A stretch of 33,483 nt of DNA from Fidelibacterota bacterium (lineage in GTDB: Bacteria > Fidelibacterota > Marinisomatia > Marinisomatales > Marinisomataceae): contig NZWP01000009.1 of assembly GCA_002701645.1 (NCBI GenBank), forward strand, positions 1-33,483, written 5' to 3'. A program made the translations under genes and the position numbers. Positions 11,834 to 32,659 of this stretch are shown here, piece by piece. The notes under the pieces were generated by a model. The model did not search any database and was not told the origin of the DNA. It saw only the letters and a program-made list of their open reading frames with translations. The number at the start of each line of letters is the position of its first letter. Within the stretch, counting starts at the first letter, position 1.

Positions 11834-11840
11834 AAGGAGA
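11834..11840 (+). promoter_or_regulatory. Strong ribosome binding site for the ATPase gene
   Basis: AAGGAGA sits five bases before the ATG at 11846. It is the best Shine-Dalgarno in the window and suggests independent, efficient initiation for the three-gene group that follows trxB. Confidence 0.7.
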
Positions 11841-11845
11841 AAAAG

Positions 11846-12556
11846 ATGGAATTAAAACAGATTTATGATATTAGTGGTCTAAAGCTCAAGTTTGGATCAA
11901 AAAAAGCTCTTGAAATTAATACCCTAAAATTTCATAATGGGTTGATTTATGGTGTATGTGGTAATTTTGGATCAGGAAAATCATCGCTATTGAAAGTTCT
12001 TTCAGGACTTCAAAAGGAATCAAATGGAGATGTTCTTTATCAAGGAAGTAAGTTTAAAACCAATTTTCTTGGAAACATTAAAAAGCATAAAGAAATTCAA
12101 TACATTCACGTAGACATGTTTAATGATTTTTCCCAATATCTAAAGAGTCATAGTACAGTTGAACGATTTTTAAAAGGAATGTTTTCTGCTAAAATAAAAC
12201 AAATTCGTACGCGACATTTTAAACACTTTAGCCTCGAACATCTTTGGAAAACGCCAATCAACAAATTGTCGGACGGTGAAAAACATTGGTTAAAAATTGT
12301 TGTAGGGGTAGAAAAAGATCCTAGGGTTCTTCTTGTAGATGACTATGGTCTACATTTAGATCCAAAAAATGAAATGATTCTGCGCAGAAGATTGATGAAA
12401 ATGAATAACGTTCTAGGAACCACTATCATTTTATCTTCAACAAGCGATTATTTCTTGAAACAATTTGCAAATGTGGTCATATATTTGGATAATGGACATG
12501 TATCGAAAGTCAGAAAAGGATATAAGCGTAATAGCTTCAATAAAAAGAAAAAGTAG
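11846..12556 (+). CDS. ABC-type ATPase with degenerate catalytic motifs, no cognate permease
   Basis: This is a 236-residue soluble nucleotide-binding domain. Walker A is GNFGSGKSS (Lys45). The signature is LSDGE (141-145) in place of LSGGQ. Walker B is VLLVDD (161-166), with Asp166 where the catalytic Glu normally stands. The switch histidine is replaced: the usual THD reads T199-S200-D201. The protein ends in a Lys/Arg/Asn-rich tail (residues about 222-236). It can probably bind ATP, but the changes argue for slow or no hydrolysis unless it pairs with a partner subunit. No membrane permease lies next to it. It overlaps the following propeller-like gene by about 59 bases. It could be a regulatory ATPase or part of an envelope machine; the substrate is unknown. 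Confidence 0.8.
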   Translation: MELKQIYDISGLKLKFGSKKALEINTLKFHNGLIYGVCGNFGSGKSSLLKVLSGLQKESNGDVLYQGSKFKTNFLGNIKKHKEIQYIHVDMFNDFSQYLKSHSTVERFLKGMFSAKIKQIRTRHFKHFSLEHLWKTPINKLSDGEKHWLKIVVGVEKDPRVLLVDDYGLHLDPKNEMILRRRLMKMNNVLGTTIILSSTSDYFLKQFANVVIYLDNGHVSKVRKGYKRNSFNKKKK

Positions 12557-14192
12557 CAACATCTTTAATTTGCTATTTTTTATGTTATTGATTGGACCTT
12601 TATTAGGTCAGGTTGATAATCGATTTAATGTTTTTAGTTGGGAGCAATATGGCGCGTTAGGTGCAGTTAATTCTATATCAGAAGATTATACATATTTTTA
12701 CTTTGGTACAGAAAATGCAGGCATTTTAAGATTAAATAAATTTTCACAACAATTTGCGCGTCCTATTACGCAAGGTCAGGGGTTAAAGTCTAATTCAATT
12801 GAACATATTTATTTTGATGAACATACAGGAATTTTATGGTCTGTAGGAGATAACTTTATTGAATATAGCTTTTCGAGAGAGGGTAGTTGGAATACGTTAC
12901 AATACAATTCACTTTCATTAAAATCCGGGAATCAGATTATCGATATTGGATCTAGTAAAGATTATTTATGGTTACGATCGAATAGCAAATTTTTCAAATT
13001 AGACCATGTCAATGGAATCTTATTAGGAATATATGTTTCACCGGATGAGCCGTCTATTGTTTGGGGAGATATTTCCTCAAGAGAATTAAGATGGAATATA
13101 TTTGATTTCAATGATTATTTTGTTGAAGATGCATGGCTTTTAACTTCAAATGGAGCTTCAGATAATAGAGGAAACTTCTCAAAATATTTATCTTATTATA
13201 AGTCAAATAATGGAATTAATTGGATGTCACTTTCTAATGGATATATTCTAAAAATAGATGAATTTAATAAGTTAATAACACCAATATTCTATGGTCTTGC
13301 ATGTACTGTTCCAACATCTGTGATTGATGATAATGTGTTGTGGATTTCAGGTATTGGAAATAAATCTTTTAATGGTATTACTAAATTTGATATTGATAAT
13401 AATAAGTTCGAAAATATTCTATCTAATCATTACTCAAATTTTAGCAAAGATAATATCTATTCAAGTATTATGATTGATGATGAGATATGGTTTGGGTTAG
13501 ATAGCTATATTTTGGTATATAATACAAAGAAAGATTCATTCAGGTCACTTGGTTTTGAGAAGGGGGTTCCTCGTGGAAAGATTGTTCATTTAGAGTACAA
13601 GAATGAATCAGTATTTGCTGGATCTATTAATGGAGTTGTTGAAATAAATAGGGCTTCAAAAGCAAAGGTAAATAGCGCAATAGAGAAATTTATTTTCTCT
13701 AGAAATCTATTTTTGGGAGATATAGAAAAGTTTGAAAATGAAATATTTTTTGTTTTAAGCAATACCGTTTTCAGATATGAAAATGAAAAAAATAGTATTT
13801 CAACTCTTAATTGGAAAGATGGCACATTTGATATGTCGATGAAAAAAAATCAAATTGATATAGCATCTAGATCTGTATCTAGGATTTTTTCTAGAAATGA
13901 TAATTTATACATGATTACAGACTTAGGTATCGTAGATTATAAGGAAGGCGCTTTAATTATTCCTTCAAGTCTTTATTTCAACTATAAGATAACTGATCTG
14001 ACCGTAGTAGATAATTCATTATTATTCTTGTCAACAACAAGAGGTTTAGCGATTATTGATATAGATACAAGAGAGCTTATTAATTACTATGATTTTCCTT
14101 TTTTAAGAAATATTTACCAAATGAAACATATCTCAGAATATTTAGTGTTACTAACGAGCAAAGGTTTAATTAAATTTAATTTCAACTTATGA
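12498..14192 (+). CDS. Secreted beta-propeller-like protein, unknown function
   Basis: Roughly 565 residues. The start is uncertain: in-frame ATGs occur at 12465, 12492 and 12498, all inside the ATPase gene. I take 12498 because GGAT lies at a usable distance and it leaves the shortest leader before the hydrophobic core NIFNLLFFMLLIGPLLGQ, a likely signal peptide. The rest is beta-rich, with repeats of roughly 45-60 residues containing patterns such as YFGTENAGILRLN, GILWSVGDNFIEYS, EIWFGLDSYILVYN and VFAGSINGVVEIN. These resemble the blades of two-component-regulator (Reg_prop) and related propellers. No C-terminal kinase or sorting domain is seen. It overlaps the GWxTD gene by ATGA. Probably periplasmic or surface-exposed; possibly a binding scaffold. 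Confidence 0.65.
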   Translation: MYRKSEKDISVIASIKRKSSNIFNLLFFMLLIGPLLGQVDNRFNVFSWEQYGALGAVNSISEDYTYFYFGTENAGILRLNKFSQQFARPITQGQGLKSNSIEHIYFDEHTGILWSVGDNFIEYSFSREGSWNTLQYNSLSLKSGNQIIDIGSSKDYLWLRSNSKFFKLDHVNGILLGIYVSPDEPSIVWGDISSRELRWNIFDFNDYFVEDAWLLTSNGASDNRGNFSKYLSYYKSNNGINWMSLSNGYILKIDEFNKLITPIFYGLACTVPTSVIDDNVLWISGIGNKSFNGITKFDIDNNKFENILSNHYSNFSKDNIYSSIMIDDEIWFGLDSYILVYNTKKDSFRSLGFEKGVPRGKIVHLEYKNESVFAGSINGVVEINRASKAKVNSAIEKFIFSRNLFLGDIEKFENEIFFVLSNTVFRYENEKNSISTLNWKDGTFDMSMKKNQIDIASRSVSRIFSRNDNLYMITDLGIVDYKEGALIIPSSLYFNYKITDLTVVDNSLLFLSTTRGLAIIDIDTRELINYYDFPFLRNIYQMKHISEYLVLLTSKGLIKFNFNL

Positions 14193-15412
14193 AAAATTTT
14201 ATATCCATTTATTTGATATTATGTAGCGTAGTATTTTCCCAGAGCTTTAATCGAAATATCGATCAGTTTAAAGCCAGCTCTTTTGTTCGCCCAGTTGCTA
14301 AGGATTCCATAGAGATTCTATCGTTTATGGAGGTGTCAAATAATACATTACAATTTCTGAAGAAAGATGGTCTTTTTGAAGCTCAATATGAAGCAAATAT
14401 TGCCATACTAGATAGCGAGAAAGAAAAGCAATCTTCTCAGCTATTCTCAGATACGATTACTGTTAAAAAATTTGGTGATACTACATCAAAGGTAAAGAAG
14501 AAAGTAATAACAACAGCGTTTGTTTTACCCCTTGAGAGTTATACTGTTACATCAAGTCTAAAAGATTTAGATATAAAGCTATCTGGAAAGAAGGATAAAA
14601 AAATTGACTTAGAAGGTATATCGAGTAGTACTTTTTTTCAAATTTATAATCCAATATTTGTAAAAGAGGTAAAAGGATTATGGGGCTTTGATTTGAATAA
14701 ATTTCCTACTGAAAGTGGTAGAGTAATACCGAGTAATGATATCATCTCTTTCTATCAGTACGTTGTTTTAAATCCAGGTGAATATAATATTACGATTAGC
14801 ATTATTGGAGATAAAAAAGTACAATGGGAAGATTCTATTAAGGCTACTGCAAATAGTAGCGTAATAAGTCATTTAGTAAATATTCCTATTAAAAATATTG
14901 ATAAAAGAGATTTGAAGGTCAAAGTAGTAGTTAGTCAGAATAGAAATACATCATCTAAGTCATTTTCATTCAAAATAAAGAATAACACACTTTTTGATGG
15001 GATTGATAATATTGATGTTGCATTAGCTCAGATGAGCTACATCTTAACATCTGATGAAAAGAAAGAATTGAAAAGCCTTAAGCAGTCAGAAAAAGAGAAA
15101 TTTTTTAGGAAAGTTTGGGCAAAAAGAGATCCTGTTGCACAGACAAAAGTTAACGAACTTATGGAAGAATATTATACCAGAGTCGTTTTCGCAGAAGAGA
15201 ATTTTTCAAGAGGAACTTCTGGGGGGTGGAAGTCAGATATGGGAATGATTTATATCTTGCTTGGTAAGCCAGACGATCTAGTTCGTTCAATGAATATGCA
15301 AGGCAGCTATAATTATGAAACATGGTATTATTTCCAAATTGGAGAAGAATTTACTTTTATTGATGAATATGGATTCGGAGATTATAGGCTTAGAACGCCA
15401 TTCTTATATTAA
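14189..15412 (+). CDS. GWxTD-domain secreted protein
   Basis: This is a 407-residue protein with a cleavable signal peptide ending ...SVVFSQ. Residues ~20-280 are beta-rich and of unknown function. The C-terminal ~110 residues contain the GWxTD-type signature as GWKSDMGMIYILLGKPDD (Trp347), followed by the aromatic YETWYYFQIGEEFTFID strands that close the domain. The Thr of GWxTD is Ser here. GWxTD-domain proteins occur widely in FCB-group bacteria and Acidobacteria, mostly as secreted proteins of unknown function. It follows the propeller-like gene with ATGA coupling and precedes the RNase HI gene by six bases. Confidence 0.8.
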   Translation: MKNFISIYLILCSVVFSQSFNRNIDQFKASSFVRPVAKDSIEILSFMEVSNNTLQFLKKDGLFEAQYEANIAILDSEKEKQSSQLFSDTITVKKFGDTTSKVKKKVITTAFVLPLESYTVTSSLKDLDIKLSGKKDKKIDLEGISSSTFFQIYNPIFVKEVKGLWGFDLNKFPTESGRVIPSNDIISFYQYVVLNPGEYNITISIIGDKKVQWEDSIKATANSSVISHLVNIPIKNIDKRDLKVKVVVSQNRNTSSKSFSFKIKNNTLFDGIDNIDVALAQMSYILTSDEKKELKSLKQSEKEKFFRKVWAKRDPVAQTKVNELMEEYYTRVVFAEENFSRGTSGGWKSDMGMIYILLGKPDDLVRSMNMQGSYNYETWYYFQIGEEFTFIDEYGFGDYRLRTPFLY

Positions 15413-21352: not shown

Positions 21353-22159
21353 ATGACAAAAAAACTCTTTTATATAACTAGTGAAATGGATCCCTTTGCA
21401 TCGGTTTCATCTTTATCCGATCTTTCTGTTAAAGTTCCTTTAGGTTTACAGGACAAAGGTAATGACGTTAGATGTTTAATGCCAAAGTATGGCTTTATTA
21501 GTGAGAGAAAATATATACTAAGAGAGGTTATTCGTTTAAAGGAAATTTTATTTGATTTCGATGATGTCGATTATGCATGCTCAGCTAAGAGTGCATTTCT
21601 ACCAAAATCAAGATTACAAGTTTACTTCTTAGAACAAGAAGATATCTTTGGAGAATTGAACAACCTTCTTTATAAGGCAAAAAATGGTAGATTTTTAAGT
21701 GACAATGATAAGAGATTTGCTTTTTATTGTTTAGCAGCGATTAAGATGTTACCTAATTTATTCTGGTATCCTAATGTTATTATTTGTAGTGCCTGGACAT
21801 CTGCATTAATACCTATGCTCGTAAAGACCTTAGCAAAAAATGATAAAAATTTATCCAAAATAAAGACTGTATATATAGCAAGCTCTTTAAACGGAGACGT
21901 TATTTTTGATCCCAGTAATCTTGGATTTAAAAAGGAAACTTTTTCGCCATTAAAGTCGTTAAATCTAAATCAAATTGGATGTATGTATGCAGATAAAACT
22001 ATCATTGTTAATGGCGCCGAGAAGGTATCTTCCAAGTTGATGAAATTAAAAGTTTTTAAAGATGCTAAGAATTGTTCCGTTGTAGATCTTGATTATGGAG
22101 AAAATACAGATTATTCTCCATTATTAGAGGCTATTGAACTAGGAATAAAAAAAATATAA
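21353..22159 (+). CDS. Stand-alone glycogen/starch synthase N-terminal-like protein, probably inactive
   Basis: This is a 268-residue protein that follows the GT5 N-terminal Rossmann domain in order: FYITSEMDPFA near the start, KGNDVRCLMPKYG, FLSDNDKRFAFYCLAAI, and a VIICSAWTSALIPM segment. In active GT5 enzymes the KTGGLGD loop binds ADP-glucose. Here it reads S17-V-S-S-L-S-D23, so the Lys and the glycines are gone, and the HxxDW segment is CSAW. The C-terminal nucleotide-sugar domain (about 200-250 residues) is absent. Comparable short GT5-N proteins exist in Bacteroidetes-type genomes. It is unlikely to make glycogen alone; it could be a regulatory or binding protein. It follows the rodA gene by 59 bases and precedes an outer-membrane group. 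Confidence 0.75.
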   Translation: MTKKLFYITSEMDPFASVSSLSDLSVKVPLGLQDKGNDVRCLMPKYGFISERKYILREVIRLKEILFDFDDVDYACSAKSAFLPKSRLQVYFLEQEDIFGELNNLLYKAKNGRFLSDNDKRFAFYCLAAIKMLPNLFWYPNVIICSAWTSALIPMLVKTLAKNDKNLSKIKTVYIASSLNGDVIFDPSNLGFKKETFSPLKSLNLNQIGCMYADKTIIVNGAEKVSSKLMKLKVFKDAKNCSVVDLDYGENTDYSPLLEAIELGIKKI

Positions 22160-22162
22160 AGA

Positions 22163-23416
22163 ATGCATAATTATTTTTCTACAAAATGGGTATTAATCAC
22201 AAGTGTTATATTCTTGTCTTTTAATGCATGCTCAGAAGAAACTATTGTTTATAGCGAGATAGAAAATCCAAATTATACTATTAACACGCTAACACTTCCT
22301 TTAGATCAAAATAAAGTATTTCAGATTAATCCAACTTCAGGAGGAGGAGGAGGTAAATTTTACTTTGGAGATGTAAAAGGTTCAGAGAATTTATTTACTT
22401 TATTTAGTCTTACTTTGTTTTCAGGCTCATTGCCTCCAACTGCATTGTTTGATTTATTAGCAGATTCAATACAAGTTGATAGTGCACTGGTATACATGCA
22501 AACTGGAGATTCGTTAAATTCAGCATCAAATTTATCTTTGTATTCAATTGTAGCAACTGAAGATAGTATTTTTTCTGAAGATTCTACTAGCTATTATTCA
22601 TTAGATAATTATATAGATTTTGAAAATAATGCCACATTATTGCATCAAATTCCATTAGTTAATATTGAGCCTGACAGTGCAGGATATGACACTCTAGATT
22701 TCTTATTTAAAGATGATAACCTTGAATTATTGAAAGAGTTTTATTTTGATACATTTACATATCCAGCAAGAACTCTTATGTTAAAAAATGATGAACCTTT
22801 AGATGAGTTATTTACAATTGAAAGTGATGAGAGTAGTCGTCAACCAAGAATGAGGGTCTGGTATAAGGCAACAGTGAATGACACAACTACCATAGATACT
22901 TCAATTCTCTTCTTTGGAGACAAAGGCCTTAGTATTTTTTCTCCTCAGATAGTAGAGGAAGAAGATAAAAATTATGTGACACTTAATTCCGGATCAGGGC
23001 TTCGGTCAGTTTTACGATATGATTTGGATATCATTAATGAACTAGAAAGAAATTCAATCGTAAAAAATGCGAATCTCGTACTTAATATAGAGTCTTCAAA
23101 TCTCGAAGAAGGTGATGAGTTTTATGTTGTAGTTGCAGCGCTTTCAGATTCTGTAGAAAATTGGGATTTTACTACATTTTTATCTGACGACGAATCTCTG
23201 AGTGATTCAGCTTATGTATCAGATCAAAACTTTATTATATCTAGGAAGGTGGAAGATGGAAAGATAGAAATCCCTATTCAAGCTTTTCTTCAGTCTTATA
23301 AAAATGATGTCATTAATAACCATGGTTTAATGCTTTATAGCGGTCCAGTAAACAGCCCATTTGATAAAATTAGATTAGATACAGAATCTGTAGAGGTGTT
23401 ATATGTTAAACCGTAA
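22163..23416 (+). CDS. Lipoprotein of unknown function with DNRLRE-like repeat strands
   Basis: This is a 417-residue protein with a signal peptide ending in a lipobox (LSFNAC), so it is probably a lipoprotein. The mature part is acidic, beta-rich and Ser/Asp-rich, with a Gly-rich loop (SGGGGGK). Two segments have the look of DNRLRE/CBM96-type jelly-roll modules: an early VDSALVYMQTGDS strand pair, and a later VKNANLVLNI with ...NHGLMLYSGP followed by IRLDTESVEVLYV. I base this on pattern only. It starts three bases after the GT5-like gene and overlaps the next gene by 14 bases, so it is likely part of one envelope operon. Confidence 0.6.
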   Translation: MHNYFSTKWVLITSVIFLSFNACSEETIVYSEIENPNYTINTLTLPLDQNKVFQINPTSGGGGGKFYFGDVKGSENLFTLFSLTLFSGSLPPTALFDLLADSIQVDSALVYMQTGDSLNSASNLSLYSIVATEDSIFSEDSTSYYSLDNYIDFENNATLLHQIPLVNIEPDSAGYDTLDFLFKDDNLELLKEFYFDTFTYPARTLMLKNDEPLDELFTIESDESSRQPRMRVWYKATVNDTTTIDTSILFFGDKGLSIFSPQIVEEEDKNYVTLNSGSGLRSVLRYDLDIINELERNSIVKNANLVLNIESSNLEEGDEFYVVVAALSDSVENWDFTTFLSDDESLSDSAYVSDQNFIISRKVEDGKIEIPIQAFLQSYKNDVINNHGLMLYSGPVNSPFDKIRLDTESVEVLYVKP

Positions 23417-24653
23417 TTTTGTTTTATTATTATTTTTAAGTGCGCTATTTAGTCAATCGACAATGAGCGGCTATGGCTATGGGATGTTTTCTCAGAACGA
23501 TGAAGCAGCTATAGTAGGTTCAGGATCAGTAGGATTATTGCCTAGTTTTAAGAATGATGTTTCATTATCCAATCCATCAACATGGCATAAATTATCATTT
23601 ACATATCTGAACACCTCTTTTGAAAGTCAAAGTAATAAATTTGGTTCTAGTTCTAGCAAAAATTCTGGATTAGCGTCAGCAAAATTAATTATCCCATCTA
23701 AGCAAAAAATTTCATTTGGATTAACATTTAAGCCATTATTTTCCAGAGAAATAACTGTCGTAGACAGCACATTTAATGAATTTATATTTGCTGGATCTGA
23801 TACATTAGATTATTCTCGATCCAATAAAACGGGTGGAGGTTCTTCAATGGCTCAATTTGCTGTCGGTTACAAGCTTACAGATACGGATGATATTGGATTG
23901 GGTCTAGATGTTATATTTGGATCATCCAGGTCATCACAAAATCTTATTATTGATTCTAGCGATCATTTATTGCAATCTAGAGATTATTTTTCAGGTTCAT
24001 TAATCGAACTTTACTATACTACAAGACGATTTTCATTCAATGACAGTCCCTTAGTTTTATCTTTAAATTATAATTTTTCATTAAATGATATTGATGTGGA
24101 AAATGAGTCTTATCAAGCATTTTTAGATTTAAACTCAAATAACTATCACGATTCACAGGATTATCCGAATGTTGCTGCCGCATTAATGCCAACCAATGCT
24201 ATATTTAAAAATGAAATATCAATAAGCGATTTTAAAGCAGGTGTTGATTATGAATTTGCTGAAAGATATCATGCTCAACTAGAGATACAATCGTGGAATA
24301 ATAATGGAAAAAATGCTTTATCTAGTTCACTTTACCCGGGATACATTAAAGGGAAGAGTAAAATTAATATTGGATTTCTGAAGTTTGCAAAGCCTTATTC
24401 AACAGACAAGTTTCATTTTAGAGCGGGATTATCATTTAGTGATTATGATATTAAAAATCTTGATAATGTTAAAGAGGTTGGTTTAGGTTTAGGAGTAGGT
24501 ATTGAATTTGGTTTAATGAGGAACCAAATTGATATTGGCTATAATTTAATAAATAGAGATAATATTTATAATGTAGGAAGTGAAACTGTACAATCATTCA
24601 ATGTAGGAGTAAGTATTGGAGATTTATGGTTCGTTAAAAGAAGAAAAATATAA
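23403..24653 (+). CDS. Putative outer-membrane beta-barrel protein
   Basis: This is a 416-residue protein with a signal peptide ending ...ALFSQ. The N-terminus (NDEAAIVGSGSVGLLPSFKNDVSLSNP-like, broken by an aromatic-rich stretch) resembles the conserved start of PorV/FadL-like FCB outer-membrane proteins. The rest is amphipathic beta-strands of alternating hydrophobic and polar residues, such as FGLTFKPLFSREITV and GLGLGVGIEFGL. The protein ends in GDLWFVKRRKI. No plug or other domain is recognised. Function unknown; transport or sorting is possible. It overlaps the lipoprotein gene by 14 bases and is followed by the TPR gene 15 bases later. Confidence 0.6.
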   Translation: MLNRNFVLLLFLSALFSQSTMSGYGYGMFSQNDEAAIVGSGSVGLLPSFKNDVSLSNPSTWHKLSFTYLNTSFESQSNKFGSSSSKNSGLASAKLIIPSKQKISFGLTFKPLFSREITVVDSTFNEFIFAGSDTLDYSRSNKTGGGSSMAQFAVGYKLTDTDDIGLGLDVIFGSSRSSQNLIIDSSDHLLQSRDYFSGSLIELYYTTRRFSFNDSPLVLSLNYNFSLNDIDVENESYQAFLDLNSNNYHDSQDYPNVAAALMPTNAIFKNEISISDFKAGVDYEFAERYHAQLEIQSWNNNGKNALSSSLYPGYIKGKSKINIGFLKFAKPYSTDKFHFRAGLSFSDYDIKNLDNVKEVGLGLGVGIEFGLMRNQIDIGYNLINRDNIYNVGSETVQSFNVGVSIGDLWFVKRRKI

Positions 24654-30948: not shown

Positions 30949-31884
30949 ATGAAATATAAAAATTTAATTACAACCGTTATCTTACTATCACAACTTGTTA
31001 TGGCTCAAGGCCAAGCAGGATCATTATTTTTATCCATAAATCCAGGTGCGAGAGCTAATGGTATGGGAGAGGCACAAATTGGAGTGGCAAATGATGCTTA
31101 TGCAACATATTATAATCCAGCTGGTTTAGCTAATCTTTCTAATACTCAAGCTTCTTTTATGCATACCAGTTATCTTCCAAATCTAGTAGATGATATGGCA
31201 TATGACTTTATTACGTTTGCTACACCGTTTAAGGAAGATGGAGCAATTGGCGGTCATTTTACTTATTTAAACCTTGGAGATCAGATTAGTACAGATGAGA
31301 ATGGAGCTGAGTTAGGTTCATTTTCTAGCTATATGTATGCATTAAATGTATCTTATGCTAAAAAAATTGATGAAGATTCATCTTGGGGTGTAAATGGAAA
31401 ATATTTCTATCAAGAACTTGCTGTTATAAGTAGTCTTGATGCTGCTAGTGGTAGCGTTGCTTTTGATGTTGGTTATTTTAAACATAATGCAATGAACAAT
31501 CCTAATTTAACAATGGGTGCTGTATTAACAAATGTAGGTCCAGGTGTTAGTTTCGGAGACGGAGAAGAAGATCCACTACCTACTAAGCTTGGCTTCGGTC
31601 TAGGTTATCTAACTCTTGAAGATAAAATGAACGTAGCATTTGATTTAAATTATGAAATAAATGATCAATCAATGGTTACTAACATTGGAGTAGAATATTT
31701 TCTTGTAGAAGATTTTGCATTAAGAGCAGGCATTATAAATGATCCATCTGGTGATTTAAGCTACACAACTCTTGGTTTAGGTGCTCGTTTAGATTCATTT
31801 GGATTTGATGTAAGTTATGTCATGGGCGGAGAGCTTGATCCACATTCAAATATGGTGAGATTCTCTTTAAGTGGTTCTTTCTAA
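30949..31884 (+). CDS. PorV/PorQ family outer-membrane protein
   Basis: This is a 311-residue protein with a signal peptide ending ...LVMAQ. The mature N-terminus has the family signature GARANGMGEAQIGVANDAYATYYNPAGLANL (seen as GMGEAxxGVANDAxATYYNPAGLA). The rest consists of amphipathic barrel strands, ending at ...VRFSLSGSF with the terminal Phe typical of outer-membrane barrels. PorV carries cargo in type IX secretion, but many family members in Marinimicrobia and related phyla are uncharacterised. No other T9SS gene lies in the window. I start at ATG 30949, not the TTG nine bases upstream. Confidence 0.82.
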   Translation: MKYKNLITTVILLSQLVMAQGQAGSLFLSINPGARANGMGEAQIGVANDAYATYYNPAGLANLSNTQASFMHTSYLPNLVDDMAYDFITFATPFKEDGAIGGHFTYLNLGDQISTDENGAELGSFSSYMYALNVSYAKKIDEDSSWGVNGKYFYQELAVISSLDAASGSVAFDVGYFKHNAMNNPNLTMGAVLTNVGPGVSFGDGEEDPLPTKLGFGLGYLTLEDKMNVAFDLNYEINDQSMVTNIGVEYFLVEDFALRAGIINDPSGDLSYTTLGLGARLDSFGFDVSYVMGGELDPHSNMVRFSLSGSF

Positions 31885-31915
31885 CTCTGAATCAAGATAT
31901 CAAATAATACCTAAT

Positions 31916-32659
31916 ATGAAACTCATATTTTTTTCAATTATTTTTTTTATAGCCGGTTGTGGCTGGGCAAATCCTTTCGACGATAATATTCCTTATAAAA
32001 CCAGATTTGAAGATGGATTGGTATTTTTTGAAGATGAGAAGTACGCAAAAGCAGCACAACAATTTGATATTATTGTTGATAGAGGTTCTCATACTGATTT
32101 AGGAGATGATGCGTTATTCTTTTTAGCGGAGTCTTATTTTCTCGATGAAGATTATGAGCTAGCTTTAACTGAATATGAGAAGTTGGTATCAAGAATGGGA
32201 TTCAGTCCTTATATCGAGAAAACCCGATGGAGAATATGTGAAACTTTAATGGCATTATCTCCAAACTATTATCACGATCAAGAATCTAGTAGGAAGGCTA
32301 TAATCGAGATACAACAGTTCTTGGATGACTATCCTTCATCTAACCATTCTGTGGGTGCTGATAACCTTATTAAAGAGCTTAGATTAAGGTTAGCTCAAAA
32401 GAACATGCAAACAGGAGAGCTGTACTTTAAGTTGAAAGCTTACGATTCAGCAATTGTTGCTTATAAAATTGTGATTAAAGACTATTATGATACAACATAT
32501 TATAGAGATGCAAATCTAGAGGTAATACGTTGCTTGGTTCTTTTGGATAAAAATGAAGAGGCTGAAGAGTTTTTAGACAGCTTAAATAAAAGCGATGAAT
32601 CACTAGTTAATGATAGTTTTAAAAAAATAGCTTCGGACATCTTAAATAACAACTCTTAA
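31916..32659 (+). CDS. bamD: Outer-membrane protein assembly factor BamD-like lipoprotein
   Basis: This is a 247-residue lipoprotein: the signal ends in a lipobox (FFIAGC). It is followed by TPR-like helical repeats of the BamD/YfiO type (YKTRFEDGLVFFEDEKYAKAAQQF, then ALFFLAESYFLDEDYELALTEY; later GADNLIKELRLRLAQKNM). BamD is the essential lipoprotein partner of BamA in barrel insertion. I start at the ATG at 31916 because the earlier in-frame ATG at 31871 lies inside the PorV/PorQ gene and would bury the lipobox. Encoded right after an outer-membrane barrel protein. Confidence 0.85.
   Translation: MKLIFFSIIFFIAGCGWANPFDDNIPYKTRFEDGLVFFEDEKYAKAAQQFDIIVDRGSHTDLGDDALFFLAESYFLDEDYELALTEYEKLVSRMGFSPYIEKTRWRICETLMALSPNYYHDQESSRKAIIEIQQFLDDYPSSNHSVGADNLIKELRLRLAQKNMQTGELYFKLKAYDSAIVAYKIVIKDYYDTTYYRDANLEVIRCLVLLDKNEEAEEFLDSLNKSDESLVNDSFKKIASDILNNNS

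Follow-up and report, generated by a model that had tools for sequence, protein, structure and literature searches.

Do three overlapping genes, encoding an ABC-type ATPase and two exported proteins, constitute a single envelope system? The question is raised by a 33,483-nucleotide stretch of DNA (hereafter the window; contig NZWP01000009.1 of assembly GCA_002701645.1) from a Fidelibacterota bacterium. The source genome (720,841 bases, 81% complete) is that of a streamlined member of this phylum, which was previously named SAR406, Candidatus Marinimicrobia or Neomarinimicrobiota (PMC11652737). Genome streamlining has been published for the Fidelibacterota, and the sizes of the genus genomes as assembled, approximately 0.4-1 Mb, agree with this (PMC6143742). 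All three genes lie on the + strand: an orphan ABC-type ATPase of 236 aa (11846..12556), a secreted double β-propeller protein of 564 aa that we refer to as PROP (12498..14192), and a GWxTD-domain protein of 407 aa with N-terminal Ig (immunoglobulin)-like β-sandwich domains (14189..15412). A first-pass annotation proposed that the three form an undescribed coupled envelope module. We find that the real unit is a two-gene PROP-GWxTD module; the conserved, exported pair upholds that part of the proposal, while the ATPase is a positional neighbour and not a member.

The pairing of PROP, the first gene, with GWxTD, the second, extends across the phylum. PROP profile matches were found in 166 of 245 phylum genomes and GWxTD profile matches in 223 of 244. 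Among the matches listed, the two genes are adjacent on one strand in 119 of the 121 genomes where both were placed, and in the two non-adjacent cases the genes are split across contigs. The pair is present at every one of 40 loci retrieved from as many genomes, and PROP is located directly upstream of GWxTD in 29 of the 30 named Fidelibacterota-type loci, the exception being at a contig edge. The pair is retained even in the most reduced genomes (0.7-1 Mb). In the window, the two genes share a 4 nt ATGA stop/start overlap (14189..14192, + strand), a feature conserved in the phylum: of the 37 loci that could be scored, 30 show a PROP-GWxTD overlap, for which 4 nt is the commonest length, and the spacing between the two genes falls within -60 to +40 nt in all 37. 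The pair is translationally coupled phylum-wide and both products possess hydrophobic export leaders, in agreement with the two exported partners originally proposed (signal peptides were judged by eye from hydrophobic N-termini, not with a predictor). The name GWxTD was not mentioned in the literature searched, and the pair is undescribed there. We are highly confident that the PROP-GWxTD pair itself is genuine.

Within the genus, GWxTD was detected in 20 of 24 genomes. Co-loss of PROP and GWxTD in G012, G014, G016 and G018 was considered and rejected, as the ATPase ortholog and trxB were also not found in these genomes (for trxB, the search lacked a positive control); they probably miss the whole stretch. 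In one further assembly (L041, G006:C1:279000-293000), many frame breaks occur in ushA, tyrS, trxB, the ATPase, GWxTD and mreC, which are probably sequencing errors.

Evolutionary rates lend additional support to the pair. When rate covariation was analysed for five genes across 33 genomes, PROP-GWxTD gave the highest partial r (0.63), with values of 0.37 for ATPase-PROP and 0.02 for ATPase-GWxTD. A second panel of 22 genomes again placed PROP-GWxTD highest, with a partial r of 0.70. Control pairs in these 22 genomes covary too (mreB-mreC 0.62, PROP-rnhA 0.60, GWxTD-mreC 0.56), and rate covariation therefore backs the pair but is not decisive. PROP-mreB and PROP-mreC covariation was nil. We consider that PROP and GWxTD probably interact physically.

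The case for the ATPase as a third component had been based on gene arrangement, and the arrangement in the window is indeed as first described. The PROP start is overprinted on the 3' end of the ATPase gene, yielding a 59 nt overlap (12498..12556, + strand); the PROP reading frame is open from a TTG at 12465, with the in-frame ATG at 12498 the most plausible start. The sole strong Shine-Dalgarno sequence among the three genes (AAGGAG, 11834..11839, + strand) precedes the ATPase gene, a pattern that repeats in relatives, where a GGAG-type sequence is kept. However, such packing is ordinary for the window: among the 21 neighbouring same-strand pairs scored, overlaps occur in 7, and in 14 the genes are no more than 10 nt apart, so that tight packing alone is uninformative on the trio. 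Same-genus relatives show a similar ATPase-PROP-GWxTD arrangement, with an ATPase/PROP overlap of approximately 23-68 nt and a PROP start that likewise varies in position. As the whole stretch pepF-...-tyrS-trxA-trxB-ATPase-PROP-GWxTD-rnhA-mreBCD-pbp2 is conserved in the genus, adjacency of the three genes carries no special signal at this level.

Beyond the genus, the trio separates. At the order level the ATPase is found upstream in 19 of 20 loci, but with 1-4 genes before PROP, and no ATPase/PROP overlap exists where other genes intervene. The intervening genes are unrelated, encoding the heptose-7-phosphate kinase rfaE/HldE (TIGR02198), PspC, gpmI and an HDAC-family protein. In deep lineages, PROP is located behind gpmI or dprA, and no ATPase ortholog is present in the fetched stretch (presence or absence in these lineages refers to the fetched loci only). 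Adjacency of the three genes in relatives, on which the first-pass annotation had staked its proposal, is not seen in most related families. Direct ATPase-PROP contact occurs in the window's genus and a few other lineages (L119, L129 and L131). Judging from the gene orders compared, the ancestral order is trxA-trxB-ATPase-(HDAC)-(PspC)-(gpmI)-hldE kinase-PROP-GWxTD, and the contact is consistent with gene loss in streamlined lineages through repeated deletion of the intervening genes. If it is such a by-product of genome reduction, this urges caution when function is inferred from overlaps in streamlined genomes.

A three-part system, in which the two exported proteins take part in a dedicated envelope process powered by the ATPase, would account for the contact and overlap in the genus and for the upstream position in the 19 order-level loci. 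We nevertheless regard it as highly improbable, and reject the ATPase as a module member, given the unrelated intervening genes, the deep-lineage loci that hold the pair but no ATPase, and the lack of covariation between ATPase and GWxTD. The ATPase residues are also degenerate. The protein matches PF00005 (ABC_tran, 63.3 bits) and has an intact Walker A (GNFGSGKS) and LSDGE signature, with DD in place of DE and no clear Q-loop Gln. Apart from L087, L100 and L101, the orthologs read carry Asp (once Asn) for the catalytic Glu. The Q-loop Gln is lost, and only a few have the H-loop/switch His. As first noted, there is no permease beside the ATPase, in any locus or lineage read. It is flanked by trxB on one side and by PROP, hldE, PspC, gpmI or HDAC on the other. 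The degenerate residues and lack of an adjoining permease fit an orphan, non-transport ABC protein. An ABC-F assignment was ruled out, as the 236 aa hold a single nucleotide-binding domain. In the loci read, the orthologs make up an orphan ABC family whose genes adjoin trxB.

What, then, do the two proteins of the pair look like? AlphaFold2 modelling of PROP (19 sequences) gave an all-β repeat structure with a pLDDT of 85.8 and a pTM of 0.82. The model shows a double β-propeller, confirming the propeller-like fold proposed from the sequence alone. Foldseek identified the hybrid two-component system (HTCS) sensors BT4663 and BT4673 (PDB 4a2l/3va6) and PorZ (PDB 5m11) as best matches. Within the PROP family, Pfam PorZ_N was matched by 24 of 28 members and Reg_prop by 23 of 28; the window PROP itself has only sub-threshold PorZ_N/T9SS_PorZ matches (PorZ profile E 3e-9). 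PROP resembles the HTCS sensors in its two Reg_prop-type propellers, and Ig-like Y_Y_Y-type domains are weakly present in some GWxTD proteins. It differs from them in having no Y_Y_Y, kinase, regulator or transmembrane segment beyond the leader, while the Ig part resides on a separate protein.

The similarity to PorZ, likewise an exported double β-propeller, raises the possibility that PROP is a divergent PorZ and that the pair serves secretion of C-terminal domain (CTD) proteins by the type IX secretion system (T9SS). In addition to the weak PorZ profile match, the translocon protein SprA was detected in 43 of 44 genomes, missing only from the incomplete assembly of the window itself. This explanation is very improbable and already largely refuted. 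With the PorZ model, PROP reaches 35.9 bits where the cut-off is 260, and it was rejected as a PorZ ortholog; it has no T9SS C-terminal domain (no TIGR04183 match), its final propeller blade being the end of the chain. A separate PorZ-like gene that scores well above PROP is present in nearly all of the genomes tested from outside the genus. For ten of these separate genes the match covers almost the full 757 positions of the model, and none of them reaches the NCBIfam cut-off. In the window's genus, the PorU-type C25 peptidase is found in 0 of 8 genomes compared with 36 of 36 elsewhere, and a separate PorZ-like gene was not found in these 8 genomes, yet PROP is kept throughout. The genus genomes hold only 2-4 CTD proteins. 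With SprA retained and both PorU and a full-length PorZ-like gene lost, the genus apparently has a T9SS lacking its sortase.

The same structural neighbours allow for a role in glycan or lipopolysaccharide (LPS) handling, whereby PROP, resembling PorZ or an HTCS sensor, would bind LPS or a glycan at the surface, with GWxTD as its anchor or delivery partner. BT4663 senses heparin and PorZ binds anionic LPS (PMC8545088); in line with this, the PROP family is rich in PorZ_N and Reg_prop matches, and in many families the gene immediately before PROP is the ADP-heptose kinase gene rfaE/HldE. However, the genus no longer has the kinase gene at this locus and still keeps the pair, and in deep lineages that position is occupied by dprA or gpmI. 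No conserved ligand site was identified. We consider a glycan or LPS role unlikely, although likelier than T9SS involvement.

The second protein is a clear member of the GWxTD family, scoring 112.9 bits with TIGR04514 (cut-off 28) and 66.1 with PF20094 (GWxTD_dom; cut-off 26.9). Both the NCBIfam and Pfam entries carry no function, as the first-pass annotation had stated. The motif in the genus is GWxSD as opposed to GWxTD, with Ser replacing Thr in the window copy (GWKSD, 15224..15238, + strand). The AlphaFold2 model (59 sequences; pLDDT 90, pTM 0.74) shows a chain of Ig-like β-sandwich domains ending at residues 268-407 in the GWxTD domain, which is predicted to consist of five helices and a short sheet carrying the motif. 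Foldseek with the full model returned Ig-type local matches only (TM of approximately 0.2), and sequence searches identified no solved relative. Judged by eye, several homologues from deep lineages begin with a lipobox-like sequence. A motif and the helix-helix-three-strand order prompted a comparison of the C-terminus with BamE/SmpA; this was rejected, as PF04355 gave no match and hhalign a probability below 1%. The phylum also has BamE-like lipoproteins distinct from GWxTD. Now that GWxTD proteins have a phylum-wide coupled partner, confidently modelled as a double propeller, their function becomes testable.

To place the family more broadly, we compared 80 named GWxTD loci, 30 of Fidelibacterota type and 50 from Ignavibacteria, Calditrichota, KSB1, Zixibacteria and similar lineages. 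Pairing with the double propeller occurs only in Fidelibacterota, PROP being absent from all 50 loci outside the phylum. In 28 of these 50, a gene encoding a POTRA-Omp85/BamA-like protein lies within 3.5 kb of GWxTD. In L160, L185 and L191 (KSB1 included), a peptidase-MA/PD40-propeller/Omp85 protein adjoins GWxTD, its gene located directly upstream in L160 and L185. The window's genome encodes a full-length homologue of this propeller-Omp85 protein (34% identity over 1050 aa), and only two Omp85 proteins were detected there, this homologue and a BamA-like protein; the same holds for several genus members. The peptidase-MA/TolB-like propeller/Omp85 fusion, as seen at L205:4334-7534 (minus strand) and in homologues, is approximately 1040 aa in length and is kept in the most reduced genomes.

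On this basis we tentatively favour an outer-membrane biogenesis function for the PROP-GWxTD pair, although we would put it at somewhat below an even chance. PROP and GWxTD would be made together in fixed proportion and leave the cytoplasm through Sec to assemble into a periplasmic complex. This complex would sit against the inner face of the outer membrane, where the propeller would be the platform on which the Ig stalk docks. As an accessory factor in the periplasm, it would assist an Omp85 machine in outer-membrane protein biogenesis, much as BamB assists BamA; the machine would be either BamA, as encoded at L212:5595-7976, or the peptidase/TolB-propeller/Omp85 protein that has been retained. 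Retention of the pair where T9SS PorU and PorZ have been lost is in line with this. The accessory subunits of the β-barrel assembly machinery (BAM), BamB in Pseudomonadota and BamG, BamH and BamI in Bacteroidota (PMC12611786, PMC12578637), offer a likeness in the proposed role: BamI contains propeller and Ig-like parts, and BamB a propeller. In contrast to these, PROP and GWxTD have no detected sequence relationship to the known subunits, and their contact with BamA is only proposed. A wider, and more speculative, possibility is that GWxTD proteins are widespread, undescribed periplasmic outer-membrane assembly factors of the Fibrobacterota-Chlorobiota-Bacteroidota (FCB) group, acting jointly with Omp85 barrels and a β-propeller, the propeller being supplied by PROP in Fidelibacterota and fused to Omp85 next to GWxTD in some KSB1-type genomes. 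We think this rather unlikely at present; if the outer-membrane role is correct, the recently described BamG/BamH set is joined by another assembly factor in FCB-group bacteria.

Several observations, in addition to the covariation of the control pairs, weigh against an outer-membrane biogenesis role. No sequence or fold match of GWxTD to a known BAM subunit was found, and no Omp85 gene is next to the pair in the phylum loci read, where its commonest old neighbour is the LPS heptose kinase. Outside the phylum, rimO lies within 3.5 kb of GWxTD in 39 of the 50 loci; as it is commoner there than Omp85 and has no outer-membrane role, the neighbourhood evidence is confounded.

The genes downstream of the pair suggest a different partner. 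In the genus, rnhA-mreBCD-pbp2-rodA follows the pair, and this cluster is near the pair in many other families, such that PROP and GWxTD might form a periplasmic scaffold accessory to the MreBCD/PBP2/RodA cell-wall elongation machine. The GWxTD-mreC rate correlation and an LD-carboxypeptidase gene within 3.5 kb of GWxTD in 6 of the 50 outside loci point in the same direction. However, the deepest lineages do not have the mre cluster alongside the pair, and PROP covaries with neither mreB nor mreC; we consider an elongation role improbable.

Returning to outer-membrane biogenesis, the window contains genes for this process. BamG and BamH define an FCB-type BAM that is conserved in most FCB phyla (PMC12611786). 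At 22163-24653, a BamG-family gene (NF053685, below cut-off) overlaps an upstream lipoprotein gene, the product of which has a lipobox followed by SEE and is possibly a BamH equivalent, while a BamD gene (31871-32659) scores over cut-off. We take these as parts of an FCB-type BAM complex. The BamG-family and BamD genes are on the same strand as the pair, and the PorV family is represented in the window too, as is a probable surface lipoprotein. Positions 21353-22159 encode a glycogen-synthase-type (GT5) N-terminal domain on its own; at 268 aa, it is approximately half the length of GlgA.

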